Of a DNA stretch of 20,609 nucleotides, positions 3,609 through 18,741 are shown piece by piece. A program made the position numbers and the translations under genes. The stretch spans positions 1-20,609 of the IMG/VR virus record IMGVR_UViG_3300048584_000038; one strand, written 5' to 3'. Within the stretch, counting starts at the first letter, position 1, and every line of letters starts with the position of its first letter. Origin of the DNA: a virus. Under the pieces are notes generated by a model. The model saw nothing but the letters and a program-made list of their open reading frames with translations, searched no databases and was not told the DNA's origin.

Positions 3609-4070
3609 TTACGACTCATCGACAGCAGTGGCGTATATTTGGTACACGGTTACAGGACCAAGACCGAAAGGTGGAGCTACAAAATCAATCTTGTAGTCGT
3701 CCCCACCAAGGATAACCATATTGGCACCCCTAATCTTCTCGTAGTGAGTGTCAAGAACTGTGATAAGAACGTATGGATGATCAAAGGTACCGATTGCTGT
3801 GCCATCTGGGGCAATACGAGTAATCTCTGATGTAGCTGGAATGCGAACGTCTGGAGTTTCATCCACAGAGACGGGGGCAGCATTTAGGTCAAAAGGAATA
3901 CCTGAACGATCGGCAGCATTGCCACTAAAAGTTTTCGTGGTCTTCCAGCGAAAAGTAATTCGCTCTGCCTCATCGTTAGGTAATCCCATCTCCATAGCAG
4001 AGGTGATGGCCTGCCTAAATTCGTCAGGATCAAAGCCTGCAAGAAACGTGGTGTCTGTAGGTTCTGCCAT
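3609..4070 (-). CDS. Putative head-tail stopper protein
   Basis: A 153-residue protein. I chose ATG 4070, which overlaps the upstream TGA as TGATG; an in-frame TTG four codons earlier would overlap that gene further. Residues around 28-47 read 'GLPNDEAERITFRW', followed by 'GIPFDLNAAPVS' and 'FDHPYVLITVLDTHYEKIRGA' type strands (shown in parts), then 'VILGGDDYKI' and 'PPFGLGPVTVYQIYA'. This succession (FRW, PFD..AAPV, ITVLD.HYE...GA, GG..Y, PPFGL..VTVYQ) matches what I know of neck 'stopper' proteins of actinophage siphoviruses. It would seal the portal channel and receive the tail. Gene order (adaptor, stopper, terminator) supports the call. Confidence 0.6.
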   Translation of the reverse strand: MAEPTDTTFLAGFDPDEFRQAITSAMEMGLPNDEAERITFRWKTTKTFSGNAADRSGIPFDLNAAPVSVDETPDVRIPATSEITRIAPDGTAIGTFDHPYVLITVLDTHYEKIRGANMVILGGDDYKIDFVAPPFGLGPVTVYQIYATAVDES

Positions 4071-4570
4071 CAGTAGTTCCAATCAATATACTGACGCCTC
4101 ATAGAATCGTCACGCTGTCGTACTGAATCAATATAAACGGTAGCGATAGTATTTTTTACCGCTAGGCGATCCAAAATAATAGCCTTCTGAGAAAGAAGAG
4201 AATCCATAATTGTCTTGAGAACAGTAGCTGACTGTTCAGTCTCGTACTCAACCGGACCAGCCTTGGCCTTGAAGCGGGTCTTGATCTGGCGGAAACCGTT
4301 CTCTGCCTCATTGATGGCACAGTAAAGAATCACGATCTGCTGGAGGTCACGAGTAAAGGTTGCCGTACCAGAAATTGGAGTGACAATACCATCTGCGTTA
4401 CAAGTAAACCCCTCCAACAGACCCTGATTATATGCAGTCCAAAAAGCATTGTTGAGGCGAGAAGTCCATTCCTCATCGGACACAGTTTCTAGGGAGGTTT
4501 CTGCGCTCCCTAGAGGGGTCATGGCAGCCTTGAGATCTGGAATTAACTCATTAAGATCCACTGCCGCCAT
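4070..4570 (-). CDS. Putative head-tail adaptor protein
   Basis: A 166-residue, mostly helical protein with a strong Shine-Dalgarno (AGGAGG, 6 nt before ATG 4570). It opens with 'DLNELIPDLKAAMTPLG', continues with 'RLNNAFWTAYNQGLLEGF', a beta hairpin ('TPISGTATFTRDLQQIVILY'), and a long helix pair around 'NAEN...IKTRFKAKAGPVEYETEQSA' in which the 'KAGPVEYE' turn is characteristic of adaptors. The C-terminus is polar and ends in 'DWNY'. Known role: a ring that docks under the portal and extends the DNA channel. Position directly after the post-capsid protein and before the stopper agrees with this. Confidence 0.6.
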   Translation of the reverse strand: MAAVDLNELIPDLKAAMTPLGSAETSLETVSDEEWTSRLNNAFWTAYNQGLLEGFTCNADGIVTPISGTATFTRDLQQIVILYCAINEAENGFRQIKTRFKAKAGPVEYETEQSATVLKTIMDSLLSQKAIILDRLAVKNTIATVYIDSVRQRDDSMRRQYIDWNY

Positions 4571-4587
4571 AATTGCCTCCTAATCAC

Positions 4588-4614
4588 ACTATAAAGTACA
4601 ACGACCTAAATCAA
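4588..4614 (-). promoter_or_regulatory. Possible promoter upstream of the neck genes
   Basis: Read on the minus strand, TTGATT (4609-4614) is followed after 15 nt by TATAGT (4588-4593), in the 55-base gap before the adaptor ATG. The -10 box matches 5 of 6 consensus bases. The -35 box matches 4 of 6 and the spacer is short, so this is tentative. Confidence 0.3.
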
Positions 4615-4625
4615 TAGATTTCAAA

Positions 4626-5249
4626 TCACATGTCTTGAAGCTCTGGGTCCTGAGCAAATGCCGCAATACGAGTCTCTACTTGCGGTGCAGGAACGTTGAC
4701 GGTTCTATCAATAGATGGACCAGTATTAACTTTGGGGGCCACGTTAGTGGTACCCGCTGACTGTGTTACTTCAGTGTAATTGACGGTACCCTTAACCTCA
4801 GCAATTCGTTTCTGAATAGCCTTAAACTGGGGCATAGAAACCTTGACGGGACTATCGTCACTATCTGAATTCTCGGCAATCTGAAGAATTCGACTCAGTG
4901 CGGCCTCGTTCGAAATCTCTGCGATTCTAGAGGTAAACGCCTTACCCTTAAGCTTGAAAAGGGCGATCATGTCGGCCTCGTCAATAAGGTTAGGATTATT
5001 GGCGATTTCTACGTAATCCTCGGCAGTCTCAACGAGACGCACTGGAATGAGAGAGCCATTAGTAAAGACATCAGACTTCTCTGAAGCTGCACGATCCTGA
5101 TTGATTTTTCGCTCCTCAATTGAGAGAGTGATCTGCTTACCAGAACGAACCGGTGTGGACCGCAATTTACCTTGTGGGTCATAAGTCAAAATATAGATGA
5201 GGCCACCACCGGGGTGTTCCCATGTTTCCTTTGCTGATACGTCAGACAT
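4626..5249 (-). CDS. Conserved-type structural-module protein of unknown role
   Basis: A 207-residue protein just downstream of the capsid gene. The start at 5249 has a clear ribosome site (AGGAG, 5 nt spacing). The N-terminal third is beta-like with 'GGLIYILTYDPQG', followed by 'ITLSIEERKINQDRAAS', 'DVFTNGSLIPVRLVE' (about residues 60-74), 'NPNLIDEADMIALFKLK', a helix 'FTSRIAEISNEAALSRILQIA', and a low-complexity, proline/threonine-rich C-tail. I recognise the layout (ERKINQ, then FTNG.L.PVRL, then NPN...E.DM, then R..EI.N..AL.R.L) as a protein often found next to capsid genes in actinophages, but no function is established to my knowledge. A head or connector role is inferred from position only. 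Confidence 0.7.
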   Translation of the reverse strand: MSDVSAKETWEHPGGGLIYILTYDPQGKLRSTPVRSGKQITLSIEERKINQDRAASEKSDVFTNGSLIPVRLVETAEDYVEIANNPNLIDEADMIALFKLKGKAFTSRIAEISNEAALSRILQIAENSDSDDSPVKVSMPQFKAIQKRIAEVKGTVNYTEVTQSAGTTNVAPKVNTGPSIDRTVNVPAPQVETRIAAFAQDPELQDM

Positions 5250-5269
5250 AAAAACTCCTGTTTCCTAAG

Positions 5270-5290
5270 GATGTATCATCATGATACATC
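5270..5290. promoter_or_regulatory. 21-bp palindrome, possible operator or mRNA hairpin
   Basis: Two perfect 10-bp arms, GATGTATCAT (5270-5279) and ATGATACATC (5281-5290), flank a single central base at 5280. The site lies between the post-capsid hairpin and the Shine-Dalgarno of the 4626-5249 gene. It contains TATCAT, which could serve as a -10 box on the minus strand. No U-tract follows, so it is not a classic terminator. Confidence 0.5.
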
Positions 5291-5311
5291 ATTTAATCTC
5301 TTCATAAATAC

Positions 5312-10483: not shown

Positions 10484-10803
10484 TTATCATCTTCTCTTTC
10501 GTCATTAGAAACGGCAAATAAATCAAATATAATTTCTTGAACACGCAAGGCATCAAACTCTCCACAGTCAACATGAAGTAGATTTGCAATCCCAACTTTG
10601 AGCATGTAAGTGTTCCTGACAAAACTGTAATTATCTACATACAAGATAAGACTCTTAGCATGTTCTTTGCACAGGACAACAGAAACCGCTAAATCTTTAG
10701 AACCTACAGTTTTGCCAGTTTTGCCACAAACAAAGCACTCACCGCTAAATAAAAACCATCTGAGGTGGCTCCCAAGAAGATTCCTTACTCTTGATGAATG
10801 CAT
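10453..10803 (-). CDS. Small Cys/His zinc-site protein overlapping the TerL 3' end
   Basis: A 116-residue protein if it begins at ATG 10803, inside the last 20 codons of TerL in another frame. No ATG, GTG or TTG occurs in frame between the TerL stop and the cysteine motif, so this overlap seems required unless a rare start is used. Residues 23-48 hold a C-x2-C...C-x2-H arrangement (CFVC, then CKEH 18 residues later), a likely zinc-binding finger. A hydrophobic, helical region ('MLKVGIANLLHV', 'ALRVQEIIFDLFAV') and a charged C-terminus follow. The ribosome site is weak, as expected for translational coupling to TerL. Function is unknown. The frame is open further upstream, but that part is only the shadow of TerL. 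Confidence 0.6.
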   Translation of the reverse strand: MHSSRVRNLLGSHLRWFLFSGECFVCGKTGKTVGSKDLAVSVVLCKEHAKSLILYVDNYSFVRNTYMLKVGIANLLHVDCGEFDALRVQEIIFDLFAVSNDEREDDKWKLMVQVSK

Positions 10804-13414
10804 CAATTGAGTCTTGCTGATACGCCAGAGCAGCCATTCGGCAAGCGTCGAGGGTGTGGAACGCACCTGCGCTATACAGCTTTTTGCGTCCGTAAGCGTC
10901 CAACGCACTCTTCGTATAAGTCCAAGTCTGGCCCTGAAACTCTCCAATAATTGACTTATCATATGGAAGAAGTAAGCGTTTTTCGTCCACCAGCTTTCTA
11001 AGAACATCAGTACTCCACTCAAGAACGCTGCGCTTAATAGCTGCTTCCTTCCAGCCATCTGGATCTATTTGATTGATTTCAATACTATCATCAAACTCCG
11101 CAATTACCTTTTCAGAGAAATTAAAGCCCCTAATTCTTGGCACCGTGTGTTTCAGTTCAGGAATTCGTCTAGCGGCCTCCTGCACGCCCTGAAGTAGGGG
11201 GAAACCTGCGCCAGTAGAATCCAAAGCAAACTGACGAGGTCTATACATGTCGATTAAATGTATGATTGCGCTTGTCTGATCAATGGTTGAAACTTTTTTC
11301 AAGAGTATCTTTGCTATCAATCTCAGGGTAGACGGACCACCCTTCTTGCCAGCCTCTTCAGCAAAAACAACAATAGATGATGGCGCTAGAGTCCAACCTA
11401 CATCCATACCAATCCAGAAATGCTTATATTTCATATGCGAACCGGGCATATCGAGCAGTTGAGCGATATCGCTCACATCACGAACCATAGATTCATCAAT
11501 GTCAAGGGACACGTACTCAAGAGAATTATAGTCACTTGACAGATCTGTATCTACTACTTCCATCAAACGATAAAGAACAAAAATAGGTGAATTCTGGTCA
11601 CCGGGAAGACCAAGGACGTTGCGTCGATAATCAACAGCATCAACGTGTCCACCGTATTCTTTGATCTTGGACTGTCGCTCTTGTTCTGTCCAGTTGGGCC
11701 TCAGCATGGCCGGTAGTGCGTGAACCTTCCAACCAGAATCAGGCTGGCACCGCTCATCGAATCCGCCGCCGACGCCACGGGTCACCCCATGAGCACGCCA
11801 ACGAGCTTTGGGATTTTGAATCTTAACTGTTTCAATAATTTCAGCCCATGCCTGTTCAGGCCAATCACTAGCCTCGTCCATTTCCAGCCAGATAGGGTGC
11901 GTATTTTTGTGCATTACGCCATCTGCCCAATAGCTACCACCATCCACTACTAAGCCATAAAATGTTTGCTCGGGGATTGGTTCCGCAGTTTTGATTTTGT
12001 AAGAGACGAAGCCTTCTTTGTCCCATACACCGTGACCAGATTTAGTAAGTCGACAGCGATAAGAATCTGCTGCCTTTTCCTTAATCGGAACTCCCATTAC
12101 TTCAGTGACGTTTATTTCTGACACTCCATAGCCAACATTATACCCAAGTGTTGTTGCGAGAGTGCCAAGCCCCAAAGTCAGTTTTTTGGACGCTGAGCCG
12201 ATATTATCTCGGTGCTGGCCGTGATGTATGTGTGCAGCACCGTCACCGCTGAGATAACCACCTAGTAGCGCCTGACGCCATTCTACCGGCATTGTATAGC
12301 ACCATGTGGGAATCTCTTTGTGATGTGAGTGATGCCCAAAGTGCTGACGCAGCCAATCGTTTAGGGCTGCATTTTGCAGGCAAACATTATCTGCCGACGA
12401 ATGTTTTCTAGCACGTATTGAATACGAAGCCATCATGCGATCTAGCCGAACAATAATTTCAGATTGATCTTTTGGATGAACAAAAAGAGAAATCGAAGAA
12501 CCACTACCAGATCCATCAGCAAGATAGCGACCAACGACCCACCAGAAGTCTTCGTTCATCTCAAAACTTGTCTTGCAGGAAGAATAGTCGATTTCAGGAA
12601 TAGGAAGTGGGTCGCCAAAATCGGTACAACCAGTCCAGTAGACATTAACAGGCATGTACTTAGACTCAGTGAAGTTATCAGGCCATTCCCAAGTAAACTC
12701 GCCAAGCTCACGCTTTGTTTTGCCGGGTTGCTTAGAAATATCATTACGAGCATAGAAGCGATGATCGGCGCTTACGTCCATTTCAAACGCGCCTTGACCC
12801 TTAACGCTATAACCTTCCTGCCTAATGGTATAAGTGTCTAATACTTTACCCCATCTCTTTTCGTGGGTCCATACATAGTCCCCAACTTTAATATCTTGAA
12901 CGGGAACTAAACCTCTGTCACGAGTCATGGTAAGGGTATCAAATGTACTCCCCTTTACACCCTTACCATCTCTCTGTGGAATACGACCCATAATACGAGC
13001 ACCATTAGCAAAGTTGATCATGAAGGGTCTATGTTTAATTCCTCCACGTCCCCTCGAAATCATCTCACGAGCTAGTCGTGTATTAAGGAAAAGTGTTTCA
13101 ACGTTGTCGGTTACGGCATCAAGGTGAACACCCTCAGGCGCGGTAATAACCATTTCTTCACCGGGGTTCACGAATGGGAACGCAAAAGCACGCATCTTGA
13201 TCGACAGCGACTTCCCAACAGAACGACTAGCACGGTCGATCTGTAGTTGGTCAGAGCATCTCCACCAAGGCCACTGAAAAGGCCATGCTCGGAAGCATCC
13301 ATCTTCTTGAGTTTCGTCAGTAAAAGCAAACTCGGCTTGATCCAAGCCGCTCTCGTCGCTCAAAATAGCCCAAAGATAAGACTCCTCATCTGTTAGTGCA
13401 GAATATACAGTCAT
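10745..13414 (-). CDS. terL: Terminase large subunit interrupted by an intein
   Basis: An 889-codon frame made of TerL exteins (residues 1-155 and 505-889, 540 residues joined) and a 349-residue intein. The ATPase Walker A-like loop is R-x5-GKS at 61-69. Walker B is 'IWLEMDEASD' (508-517, Asp513/Glu514), followed by a coupling motif 'GVTRG' (543-547). The RuvC-like nuclease shows 'WIGMDVGW' (Asp671), 'ALDSTGAG' (Asp732) and 'FHTLDACRMAAL' (Asp856), the three expected acidic positions. TerL docks on the portal and pumps and cuts phage DNA. The start overlaps the HTH gene's stop (ATGA) and has GAGAGA upstream. Intein and extein are in one open frame, so an active enzyme needs protein splicing. 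The 3' end overlaps a small zinc-site gene. Confidence 0.92.
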   Translation of the reverse strand: MTVYSALTDEESYLWAILSDESGLDQAEFAFTDETQEDGCFRAWPFQWPWWRCSDQLQIDRASRSVGKSLSIKMRAFAFPFVNPGEEMVITAPEGVHLDAVTDNVETLFLNTRLAREMISRGRGGIKHRPFMINFANGARIMGRIPQRDGKGVKGSTFDTLTMTRDRGLVPVQDIKVGDYVWTHEKRWGKVLDTYTIRQEGYSVKGQGAFEMDVSADHRFYARNDISKQPGKTKRELGEFTWEWPDNFTESKYMPVNVYWTGCTDFGDPLPIPEIDYSSCKTSFEMNEDFWWVVGRYLADGSGSGSSISLFVHPKDQSEIIVRLDRMMASYSIRARKHSSADNVCLQNAALNDWLRQHFGHHSHHKEIPTWCYTMPVEWRQALLGGYLSGDGAAHIHHGQHRDNIGSASKKLTLGLGTLATTLGYNVGYGVSEINVTEVMGVPIKEKAADSYRCRLTKSGHGVWDKEGFVSYKIKTAEPIPEQTFYGLVVDGGSYWADGVMHKNTHPIWLEMDEASDWPEQAWAEIIETVKIQNPKARWRAHGVTRGVGGGFDERCQPDSGWKVHALPAMLRPNWTEQERQSKIKEYGGHVDAVDYRRNVLGLPGDQNSPIFVLYRLMEVVDTDLSSDYNSLEYVSLDIDESMVRDVSDIAQLLDMPGSHMKYKHFWIGMDVGWTLAPSSIVVFAEEAGKKGGPSTLRLIAKILLKKVSTIDQTSAIIHLIDMYRPRQFALDSTGAGFPLLQGVQEAARRIPELKHTVPRIRGFNFSEKVIAEFDDSIEINQIDPDGWKEAAIKRSVLEWSTDVLRKLVDEKRLLLPYDKSIIGEFQGQTWTYTKSALDAYGRKKLYSAGAFHTLDACRMAALAYQQDSIDAFIKSKESSWEPPQMVFI
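11903..12949 (-). mobile_element. Intein with LAGLIDADG homing endonuclease inside TerL
   Basis: It spans TerL residues 156-504. The N-terminal splicing block starts at Ser156 (STFDTLTMTRDRG...DIKVGDYVW). Block B is 'DVSADHRFYAR' with the S-x-x-H form of the usual T-x-x-H (Ser215, His218). Two LAGLIDADG motifs, 'GRYLADG' (Asp300) and 'GGYLSGDG' (Asp391), mark a homing endonuclease with both catalytic acids kept. Block F is 'FYGLVVDGGSYWADG'. The C-terminus reads V-M-H-K-N, followed by Thr505 as +1 residue. The exteins rejoin as GVKG|THPIWLEMDE, giving continuous TerL sequence just before Walker B. The penultimate residue is Lys where most inteins have His; the His is one place earlier. The exact left boundary (Ser156 rather than Thr157) is inferred from the rejoined extein. 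Confidence 0.88.
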
Positions 13415-15368: not shown

Positions 15369-16037
15369 TTAGGATGGTAACCATGTCTGCATAGGCGAAC
15401 CCATACTAATTATCTTGCCCGCTCGATAACCTAAGGGCATAATAACCTCAGCTACTTTTCTGGAGGCCGTTCGGGTGTGAGCTTCAGCGTAAATAACCGG
15501 ACGGCATCGTTCGATGTTCTTTATTGCACCAGCCAGAACGTCATGCTCCATACCTTCAACGTCGACCTTAATAACAGCCAAGTCGTCTACCTGAACAAAG
15601 TCATCAATTCTATGAACTGGAACATGACCCCTGTCCAAGGTGAGTTCTGCTCCCTCACGAGTGGGATCAAATTCAATCCACATTCCCTCAGTAAAACGAC
15701 CACGAGTTGATTCTGCTCCAGCGCCCCAATCATGCACCGTGACATCAAGATCAGGATTAAGAATTAGGTTTTCCTCAAGAGCGGCCCGAGAATCATCAAA
15801 GGGCTCCCAAGCGTGGACCTTAAAACCACACACAGCAGCTAGCCATAAAGTGTGATTTCCAATGTGAGCACCAACATCAAATGCTGTGCCAGTGGCCCCG
15901 AGACGGTAAATCTCCTGTAACAACTTCTTTTCGTAAGGTTCTCCATTAGCAAGCTTAGAACCAACTCTACCGGGACCGGGGTTGACGATTTGGTACTGCT
16001 CACCTTGTGGGCCAGTAATTGTAACGATATCTCTCAT
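15369..16037 (-). CDS. FkbM-family SAM-dependent methyltransferase
   Basis: A 222-residue protein. I chose ATG 16037 because AGGAGA lies 7 nt upstream and it begins just after the preceding TAA; an upstream start would extend through the previous gene. The SAM-binding loop is 'FDVGAHIGNHT' (about residues 53-63), with the acidic end of the next strand in 'VHAWEPFDD' and the FkbM signature 'VIKVDVEGME' near residue 155. The C-terminus has 'RPVIYAEAH'. FkbM proteins O-methylate hydroxyls, often on sugars or polyketides. Between glycosyltransferase genes it most likely methylates a transferred sugar. This methylation target is inferred. Confidence 0.85.
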   Translation of the reverse strand: MRDIVTITGPQGEQYQIVNPGPGRVGSKLANGEPYEKKLLQEIYRLGATGTAFDVGAHIGNHTLWLAAVCGFKVHAWEPFDDSRAALEENLILNPDLDVTVHDWGAGAESTRGRFTEGMWIEFDPTREGAELTLDRGHVPVHRIDDFVQVDDLAVIKVDVEGMEHDVLAGAIKNIERCRPVIYAEAHTRTASRKVAEVIMPLGYRAGKIISMGSPMQTWLPS

Positions 16038-16038
16038 G

Positions 16039-16686
16039 TTAAATTCTCCTATTACGAATAGTTCTTTGGTGATGCCAATGATGTATAGTGTAGGAATCTG
16101 GAAATGATTCACCATATCTATCTAGTTCATTATGGGCATACGGATAAAAATACCAGTGAGGGTAAATCTTAAAGTCCTGTCCATGTTCTTGCCAAAGTGG
16201 AGTAATCCACTGGGGTCCCGTCATTATGCTCGGCCTGCGTAAATTATGACGTTGACAGTAACGCAATCTTTCATGTAATCCGTCAAGTAAGTAACCAATA
16301 AAATCATTTTCGGGCTCGGCACCCACAATTGCATTATTTACCCAAAGGGATTCTGGGTCCTCAAATCCCGCAAAACCTGTAACCTTTTTACAAAGTTCAT
16401 CTATTGGCTTAAGAGCCTCAAGGTCACAATCAATGTAAACACCACCGAACTTCCATAGTATTTCCAATCTAGCTATATCGGCACGCAATTGACCAACCTC
16501 ATTAGGTCCTACTAGCTTGGGAGCTATGTCAAACCAAGATCGGTGACTGATCCAGTCAAGATTGTCGTCAGTCCATTTCATGATCTCCCATTCTGGATGA
16601 AGAGGTTTCCATGTCTCTATGCACTTAACCAAGTGATCAGGCATGGGAGGGCCAACCCAAATATAGTGCAATATCTTTGGAATCAT
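16039..16686 (-). CDS. GT32-type glycosyltransferase (DXD sugar transferase)
   Basis: A 215-residue protein with the full signature of the DXD-containing sugar transferase (Och1/GT32-like) family. It has 'IPKILHYIWVG' at the N-terminus, 'HPEWEIMKWTDDN' at 30-42 and 'RADIARLEILWKFGGVYID' leading to Asp86-Cys-Asp88, the metal/nucleotide-sugar site. 'ALKPID' follows, and later 'NNAIVGAEP'. The C-terminus carries 'HHWHHQRT', a common end for this family. It starts by ATGA overlap with the GT2 gene upstream. Family members transfer mannose, galactose or related sugars; the donor cannot be read here. Confidence 0.85.
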   Translation of the reverse strand: MIPKILHYIWVGPPMPDHLVKCIETWKPLHPEWEIMKWTDDNLDWISHRSWFDIAPKLVGPNEVGQLRADIARLEILWKFGGVYIDCDLEALKPIDELCKKVTGFAGFEDPESLWVNNAIVGAEPENDFIGYLLDGLHERLRYCQRHNLRRPSIMTGPQWITPLWQEHGQDFKIYPHWYFYPYAHNELDRYGESFPDSYTIHHWHHQRTIRNRRI

Positions 16687-17279
16687 GATAATTTATGCTT
16701 TCTCATAACCTTACTACGAGCGTTTTGCTGTTTTTTGCTGTTTCCGCTTATTCCTTCATCAATCCAGTAAGCTATAAAATGAACGTTAGCAACATACACG
16801 CCAGTAGATCCATTACTAGTCATAGTTAAAAACATATCCCAATCCTGAAGGCTTTCAATCCGTTCATCAAAACCCGGAAAGGCTGATTTGCGAACCAAGC
16901 TCATTGTGGAGATGTAATTTTGTTTACGAAGCGCTTTCAGGTCGAACTCTCTTGCTGTATGGCGCTTCACACGACTGTTCGGGTAGTTAGCAGCCAAATA
17001 ATCGCAATATGCAAAGTCGTGATCACCTATACCTTCAAGTAGTTTTTTAAGAAAATCTCGACTCAAAATAACATCATCATCGCAAAAGAACAAAAACTCC
17101 TGACTAGAGAGAGAAGCACCCTTATTTCTTTTCCATTGATTATTTTCGTCTCCATCCAATACATGGATCTCACGAGGCCTATTATGTTCTACACTTGGAA
17201 GGCAGTAGCTACGAAAAAAGTCCTCTCGACTCTTAAGATGAGGTATTACAACCGAAATCGGAAGAGTTTGCTCACTCAT
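16683..17279 (-). CDS. GT2-type glycosyltransferase
   Basis: A 198-residue GT-A enzyme. 'ISVVIPHLKSR' opens the nucleotide-binding fold, 'EIHVLDGDEN' gives the second strand, 'RNKGASLSSQEFLFFCDDD' leads to the metal-binding Asp67-Asp69, and 'FDERIESLQDWDMFLTM' contains the acidic 'DWD' of the acceptor side. It lacks a membrane segment and is shorter than many GT2 proteins, but the core is complete. It overlaps both neighbours by ATGA-type junctions, so it is co-translated with the other sugar genes. Confidence 0.8.
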   Translation of the reverse strand: MSEQTLPISVVIPHLKSREDFFRSYCLPSVEHNRPREIHVLDGDENNQWKRNKGASLSSQEFLFFCDDDVILSRDFLKKLLEGIGDHDFAYCDYLAANYPNSRVKRHTAREFDLKALRKQNYISTMSLVRKSAFPGFDERIESLQDWDMFLTMTSNGSTGVYVANVHFIAYWIDEGISGNSKKQQNARSKVMRKHKLS

Positions 17280-18034
17280 TTGTGATCCAAACCGTGAACG
17301 TCACAAGCCTTGTCAAAAAGCTTTTTAGAAATCTGGTAATTAGACTTTTGAGATCCCACCGGAGATGACTTATGCCATTCATGTATCATCTTAACGGTCC
17401 CAAGATACATAATTTTATAACCATGTCCCCTGAGATGGTACGAATAATATGTTTCCTCGAAAAAGTGTGGAGTAGGCAGAAATGCCCCTTCTGCCTCAGG
17501 TGCAGCCTCACGATAAAGTGAGCACTCAGTCATTTCATCCCAAGTCGATCTGCGAGTGAAGTAGGCTGATCCTGAAACAGATACCACCTCTTCCTCCACC
17601 CGGTACTTGCGGGGATGGGGAGACAACCAAGCCCTTGCCTTCATTGTTTTCTCATTGCCAATGAAACCGGCATGAGTTAGTCGATTCTTGGAGTCAACCT
17701 GCATGGGACCAACAGCGCCAACATCTGGATTCTCGTCAAGATATAAAGAGCAGTAGTCTGGACAAGCAGAATCAAGAAACTTGGTGTCTGCATTGAAGAA
17801 ACCAATGTTTCGACCTGAAGAAAGTCTCGCACCACGATTGCAGGCCCGAGCAAAACCAATATTATCGGAGACTGCAAGATAACCAACGTTATGCTTCATG
17901 GACCGACCTTCAGTCTCAACGTCAATGACTATAATTTCTGACTCTAGCTCATGTTCAAACTCAAACCAACTATCAAGAAATCGATCAAGAAGAGAGTCCG
18001 TATGATAATTAACTACCACGACACTGAGGTCCAT
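17276..18034 (-). CDS. GT2-type glycosyltransferase (rhamnosyltransferase-like)
   Basis: A 252-residue protein starting at ATG 18034, which shares its A with the previous stop (TGATG); GTG and TTG codons just upstream are less likely starts. It shows 'LSVVVVNYHTD' at the N-terminus, 'DNIGFARACNRGAR' (a hallmark of WbbL/RfbF-like enzymes), 'GFFNADT' as the DXD-equivalent, 'VGAVGPMQVD', 'VSGSAYFTRRSTWDEM' and 'FEETYYSYHLRGHGYKIMYL' (in parts) with an acidic pair. 'IHEWHKSS' near the C-terminus is also typical. Family members often add rhamnose to a lipid or protein-linked glycan; the donor here is inferred at best. Confidence 0.83.
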   Translation of the reverse strand: MDLSVVVVNYHTDSLLDRFLDSWFEFEHELESEIIVIDVETEGRSMKHNVGYLAVSDNIGFARACNRGARLSSGRNIGFFNADTKFLDSACPDYCSLYLDENPDVGAVGPMQVDSKNRLTHAGFIGNEKTMKARAWLSPHPRKYRVEEEVVSVSGSAYFTRRSTWDEMTECSLYREAAPEAEGAFLPTPHFFEETYYSYHLRGHGYKIMYLGTVKMIHEWHKSSPVGSQKSNYQISKKLFDKACDVHGLDHK

Positions 18035-18741
18035 CACCAACCCACTCTCTTGTCTACAACATTCAAAAGCTCTGGCGCCATAACATGCTTGCTGATGCAG
18101 GTAGGATCAAACCACAGTTTTCCTTGCTGCTCGTGTATAGCAGTAGACCAACCAAGATCCTCACCTTGACGATGGAAACGGTAATCTGTATTGTAAGCAG
18201 AATATCTCATAAAGCTGGAAGCTATAAGAACGTCCGCTCTTGTAGGTCTGGACCCCAAGCATCTATTCCACATACCGGGATGACCCTTCTTCGTCCAGTA
18301 ACCGGCATTGGTGTATCTTTCAGAACGCTTGGACAGGAAGCACTTGGTACCCACTGCCCATAAATCTGGCTGTTCACGCAGAATCCCCAAGGCCGATTTG
18401 ATAGCCAAGGGGTGAAGTAGAATATCTGAATCTAAACTGAAGAAAATTTCTGGCTCTCTATCTCTTACGTATGAGAGAAGCTCATTGCGTAAAGCTGCCA
18501 TATGGTGATACCTCTGCTGGGACCAACGATGGTCACCCGGTGCAGAGTGAAGATCGGTAAACTCAATGTGGGCAGACGGATAGCCGTCAATCAGCCACTG
18601 TGGATCATCTTCCCGGTACGCCAAGAAAAGTACATCTATCTCAACGTCAGCTACATCTGCGGCTGCTTCCAAGTAGGCTCTGTATTCTCTGATAATCCAG
18701 TCTCGGTCAGAGCTTATAGGGCATCCAACTAGAATCCTCAT
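18034..18741 (-). CDS. GT-A fold glycosyltransferase with DSD motif
   Basis: A 235-residue protein. ATG 18741 overlaps the nuclease stop (ATGA); a start 19 codons earlier would run far into that gene and adds no conserved sequence. 'RILVGCPISSDRD' opens the fold. 'ALRNELLSYVRDREPEIFFS' (in parts) leads into Asp104-Ser-Asp106 ('LDSDILLHP'). 'GEDLGW' at 193-198 and 'FDPTCISKHVM' near the end complete the likely active site. The layout (RN..L...., then LDSD, then GED..W, then a late His) resembles Anp1/GT62-like and related transferases. It is the first gene of the sugar cassette. Confidence 0.75.
   Translation of the reverse strand: MRILVGCPISSDRDWIIREYRAYLEAAADVADVEIDVLFLAYREDDPQWLIDGYPSAHIEFTDLHSAPGDHRWSQQRYHHMAALRNELLSYVRDREPEIFFSLDSDILLHPLAIKSALGILREQPDLWAVGTKCFLSKRSERYTNAGYWTKKGHPGMWNRCLGSRPTRADVLIASSFMRYSAYNTDYRFHRQGEDLGWSTAIHEQQGKLWFDPTCISKHVMAPELLNVVDKRVGW

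Follow-up and report, generated by a model that had tools for sequence, protein, structure and literature searches.

An intein with a penultimate lysine and fewer of the usual histidines before Walker B of a viral TerL

The large terminase subunit (TerL) of this virus carries a full-length intein, consisting of a Hint splicing domain and a LAGLIDADG homing endonuclease, inserted between Walker A and Walker B and lying just before the Walker B strand. The intein ends HKN/T, where the slash marks the junction. Compared in alignments with the more canonical inteins found at the same site in other viruses, it is unusual in what appears to be a joint loss of three assisting histidines, combined with Ser at residue 1. 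The sequence analysed, here called the window, is the whole of a 20.6 kb IMG/VR record, and the features of the gene are collected in Table 1.

Table 1. Features of the intein-bearing TerL gene in the window
Feature	Position	Strand	Basis or remark
TerL precursor with intein, 889 aa	10745..13414	minus	single open ORF; GX15bay TerL match; phrog_5909
N-extein, residues 1-155, ends GRIPQRDGKGVKG, Walker A RSVGKS	12950..13414	minus	alignment with GX15bay and L047
Intein, residues 156-504, 349 aa, Ser first, Asn last	11903..12949	minus	empty sites, fold match, profile match
Block A, STFDTLTMTRDRG	12911..12949	minus	register against Cys1 inteins ambiguous by one residue
Block B, V-S-A-D-H, intein His63	12761..12775	minus	S60-x-D-H63 invariant in L002 and L048
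First LAGLIDADG acid, Asp300 (FWWVVGRYLADG)	12515..12517	minus	conserved in L002 and L048
Second LAGLIDADG acid, Asp391 (LLGGYLSGDG)	12242..12244	minus	conserved in L002 and L048
Blocks F and G, FYGLVVDGGSYWADGVMHKN; block F His to Gly, penultimate His to Lys, extra His at -2	11903..11962	minus	alignment with relatives
C-extein, residues 505-889, starts THPIWLEMDEASD (Walker B)	10748..11902	minus	alignment with homologues

The insert and its boundaries in TerL

The ORF runs without a stop across its 889 codons, and residues 1-155 joined to 505-889 make up a TerL that has the Walker motifs RSVGKS (A) and LEMDEA (B) and a nuclease part at its C-terminus. GX15bay TerL is 44% identical, with 60% of the query covered, and phrog_5909 (terminase large subunit) matches the nuclease part (7.7e-06). 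Scanning IMG/VR with a three-sequence C-extein alignment gave 64 loci encoding TerL homologues; a search using GX15bay TerL peptides returned no matches.

More than 50 of these 64 loci have no insert at the window site. The nearest intein-free TerLs (L039-L045 and L047) read GRIPQRDGKG[LI]KG/THP[LI]WLE[QM]DEASD with nothing inserted, their empty sites being GKGLKG/THPLWLEQDEASD in L039-L045 and GKGIKG/THPIWLEMDEASD in L047. The GX15bay empty site is GVKG/IHPIWLELDEA, with Ile at +1. In the window protein this text breaks off at G155 and resumes at T505, leaving an extein of exactly the expected length. The nearest intein-free relatives natively have Thr at +1, and N504, followed by T505, is the only Asn near the junction that precedes Ser, Thr or Cys. 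The alignments place the boundaries at exactly 156 and 504. A first-pass annotation, made from the sequence alone, had the exteins rejoining as GVKG/THPIW before Walker B; the intein-free homologues agree with it and place no boundary elsewhere, and with so many loci lacking the insert it is not part of an uninterrupted TerL.

It is extremely improbable that the boundaries lie elsewhere or that this is a class 3 intein, and we rejected both on the alignments. Class 3 inteins do seem to occur among TerLs of this family, the L002 protein having a second insert with the W/C/T signs, but F:4 of the window intein is Gly rather than Cys and no W follows its block B His. Other boundaries were rejected because any other cut makes the extein length depart from that of the homologues.

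A Pfam search of the window protein alone gave no match, and in NCBIfam it matched intein-bearing models. Other members of a seven-intein alignment matched the Pfam families Hint_2, Intein_splicing and LAGLIDADG_3, and the profile built from all seven found known inteins in the PDB: PI-PkoII (8e-22), TliVMA (2.5e-17), PI-SceI (2e-13) and gp41-1 (1.7e-10). An AF2 model of the intein made from the same seven sequences had a mean pLDDT of 85.6; a first model from three sequences (pLDDT 36) was discarded. The model matched 7qsu over nearly its full length (Z 29.8, rmsd 3.1, 315 residues), 2cw7 with Z 26.9 and PI-SceI with Z about 24, and full-length homing-endonuclease inteins overall with Z about 18-30; TliVMA and PI-PkoII are among the inteins matched in fold. 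Both LAGLIDADG acids are in place, as the first-pass annotation had noted, and the endonuclease is presumably active. Scanning genome contigs with the window intein found no relative.

Compared with L047 and L039, the window exteins have dN of about 0.18-0.24 with dS saturated, which points to strong purifying selection on the mature protein. TerL is required for packaging. As the exteins appear to be under such strong constraint, the window intein presumably splices. The empty sites, the fold, both endonuclease acids and the extein conservation all agree with the earlier view that a critical ATPase site holds an intact intein of the mobile type. Dating the insertion by GC was abandoned, the gap between intein (45.1%) and exteins (46.8%) being too small.

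Residues at the two splice junctions

The C-terminus of the window intein is DGGSYWADGVMHKN/T, in which Lys503 is intein Lys348. Two other viruses, L002 (IMGVR_UViG_3300003886_000472) and L048 (IMGVR_UViG_3300042540_000917), have inteins with the same insertion point before Walker B and the same two-domain layout. The L002 intein (48% identity) ends EDHSYLSEGIISHN/T, or IISHN/T, and the L048 intein (37% identity) ends DAHSYLSGSIMSHN/I, or IMSHN/I. The penultimate and block F histidines are present in both of these inteins and missing from the window intein. The F:4 Asp is also absent, being Gly in the window and in L002. In the intein tree the window pairs with L002 with support of 100/99.

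As both sister inteins carry the usual residues, the window junction is probably the derived state, with the penultimate Lys a substitution rather than a misread boundary. The HKN/T ending noted in the first pass is real, by the sequence and by the empty sites, but it is not shared by the other TerL inteins at this site, which end S-H-N. Its His had been described as one place early. A His does stand at -2, but nothing has shifted: relative to L002 and L048 there are two substitutions, Ser to His at -2 and His to Lys at the penultimate position.

The N-terminal junction is less clear. The empty site puts Ser156 directly after the extein Gly, and an ungapped block A sets it on Cys1 of L048 and of Lactococcus phage 949, with 22 residues to the G-D pair in all of them. 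MAFFT instead moves the relatives' Cys1 back by one residue, so that it faces the extein Gly. Most structural matches likewise start with model residue 10, the extein Gly, opposite residue 1 of known inteins, although AF2 was given the same alignment and these matches are therefore not independent. Block A may have lost one codon, possibly that of Cys1 itself. The placing of Ser as residue 1 follows from the empty site rather than block A. The Ser1 of the earlier reading holds on that evidence, while block A also allows the relatives' Cys1 one residue earlier. Where the window intein begins with Ser and is followed by Thr, the L048 intein begins with Cys1 and, unexpectedly, is followed by Ile; the L002 contig does not reach the first residue of its intein.

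Canonical splicing requires Cys, Ser or Thr at +1. The L048 intein (3969-5000), which has Cys1 and an HN ending (SHN/IHPIW), seems to have no +1 nucleophile, and many intein-free relatives also have Ile there.

The block B Thr/Ser-x-x-His of class 1 inteins is present in the window intein as S60-A-D-H63 (intein numbering), matching the S-x-x-H reported earlier and kept in L002 and L048. The NX His is missing, as the stretch between intein residues 30 and 62 contains no His. Among Ser1 cysteine-less inteins whose +1 residue is Ser or Thr, 56 of 58 conserve this motif, a His with Arg or Lys before it (PMC10189870). Members of that group such as PolB16 and archaeal Pol inteins (PMC10189870) resemble the window intein in having Ser first, Thr at +1 and the oxyester chemistry proposed here, but the NX His of PolB16-type inteins is missing from the window intein.

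Probable splicing route and competing explanations

The intein most likely splices as a class 1 intein using oxyester chemistry, through Ser1, Thr+1 and Asn cyclisation. Ser156 would attack the preceding Gly-Ser bond, the N-extein would be transferred to Thr505, and cyclisation of Asn504 would release ligated TerL, GVKG-THPIW. Asn cyclisation would have to proceed without the penultimate and block F histidines, with Lys503, His502 or backbone geometry alone substituting for them. Inteins tolerate the loss of single catalytic helpers, and mutational studies have usually probed the penultimate, block F and NX histidines singly. Here the penultimate His, block F His, NX His and F:4 Asp are all missing together, which argues against splicing. 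In its favour, a KN-ending intein interrupts a conserved enzyme, phage 949 NrdD, whose empty site is known, and a noncanonical class 1 phage intein tested by Kelley et al. splices fully (PMC5050341). More tentatively, the block B His could be the sole canonical His at work, with the branched ester resolved by the displaced H502-K503 pair or with no side-chain help, in a reduced oxyester site that evolved from an ordinary same-site TerL intein.

The same losses could mean that the intein is decaying. Deletion of one codon would have removed Cys1, and substitution the penultimate and block F histidines, leaving no splicing or only cleavage in a defective phage or a minority variant. Four assisting positions deviate simultaneously, the sister inteins keep the histidines, and MAFFT sets the relatives' Cys1 opposite the extein Gly; at this same site L048 reads KG/CS, where loss of the Cys codon would give KG/S. 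We nevertheless consider decay unlikely. The 889-codon ORF is open, both endonuclease acids are kept and the exteins are strongly conserved. Because an insert separating the two Walker motifs would be expected to inactivate TerL, a dead intein ought not to be maintained.

If the intein does splice, its unusual catalytic residues might tune the rate, as Kelley et al. proposed for phages (PMC5050341), and the first-pass annotation suggested that slow splicing could time packaging. Such conditional or slow splicing is improbable, and the published rates lend the suggestion no support. The Bethlehem RDF intein, with a native penultimate Gly, is fast and became slower when His was introduced, and five mycobacteriophage TerL inteins are fast (PMC5050341). 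HN-ending inteins occupy the same site in other phages, so no conserved regulatory trait is apparent.

The three homologous inteins at one TerL site in a packaging ATPase, two with the usual His and one without, offer a natural comparison of which residues Asn cyclisation needs, and of whether their relaxation is neutral or serves rate. The window intein is a natural test of the minimum needed for splicing, and its cysteine-free junction pair may be useful in protein engineering.

Penultimate lysine in other viruses and the intein hotspot in TerL

A penultimate His is usual in class 1 inteins but not obligatory. In mycobacteriophage class 1 inteins, Kelley et al. (2016) described Gly, Lys and Ser at the penultimate position; every noncanonical intein that they examined had Cys as its initiating nucleophile (PMC5050341). 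The Lys is as in the window, but those inteins start with Cys rather than Ser, and host protein, site and sequence also differ. TerL is the commonest intein host protein in mycobacteriophages, and one of the insertion classes lies in Walker B (PMC5050341). The TerL1-e intein of Gaia, which belongs there, shares with the window the host protein and the Walker B region; the likeness is at the level of the region, and the terminase family is different.

Penultimate Lys is a published and recurrent phage variant, found in at least four other viral inteins. The Lactococcus phage 949 NrdD intein (HM029250, phrog_26446) is 27% identical to the window intein over its full length. It reads LLVKN/CGYLS, against a phiL47 empty site of QRV/CGYLS, and its block F His is replaced by Ala; unlike the window intein it has Cys1, Cys+1 and a ribonucleotide reductase host. 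Near-identical copies occur in P1048, AM4 and AM5. This KN-ending intein (L004:1433-3682, and L037) is unmarked in the feature tables of 949 and P1048. A methylase intein of mycobacteriophage Pacc40 ends LVVKN/C, and two IMG/VR proteins (L008 and L009) also have the penultimate Lys. The L009 motif (5243-5301, minus strand) reads IITKN/CSCHYEYVYA with Gly in block F, possibly in a phage head-morphogenesis-like protein. Searching genome contigs for a KN block F/G pattern gave 10 matches, none in an intein-like frame, which were taken as chance.

In a tree of 11 inteins the three with Lys did not form one clade, the deep branches being weak. The window HKN/T fits the published phage inteins with a noncanonical penultimate residue (PMC5050341), subject to the doubt over residue 1. 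The variant group suggested by the first-pass annotation exists in that its Lys is published and recurrent, but the members tested do not form a single lineage. Block F His was found in none of six inteins with a non-His penultimate residue and in 11 of 22 with HN, a trend only (Fisher p about 0.055).

The TerL family of the window is an intein hotspot. Insertions occur at the P-loop (L046, L069 and L087), before Walker B (the window, L002 and L048), at DEA/S (L046), in the nuclease part (L002 and L062) and near the C-terminus (L057), and the L046 TerL ORF reaches 1278 codons. A further TerL site, in L048 and L062, ends YYTGN before Ser or Thr, with a penultimate Gly. The second insert in the nuclease part of L002 TerL (1734-2177) is small and intein-like; it reads DK/MQPVSEPV...LTHN/TGAG and shows the class 3 signs W, Cys(F) and Thr+1. 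At the same point L062 carries a longer homologue whose middle is endonuclease-like.

The window TerL gene adjoins an HTH protein and a cassette (15369-18040) in which an FkbM methyltransferase and several glycosyltransferase genes lie next to the packaging genes. GX15bay has a similar gene order, with glycosyltransferases and a putative transcription factor ahead of TerL.
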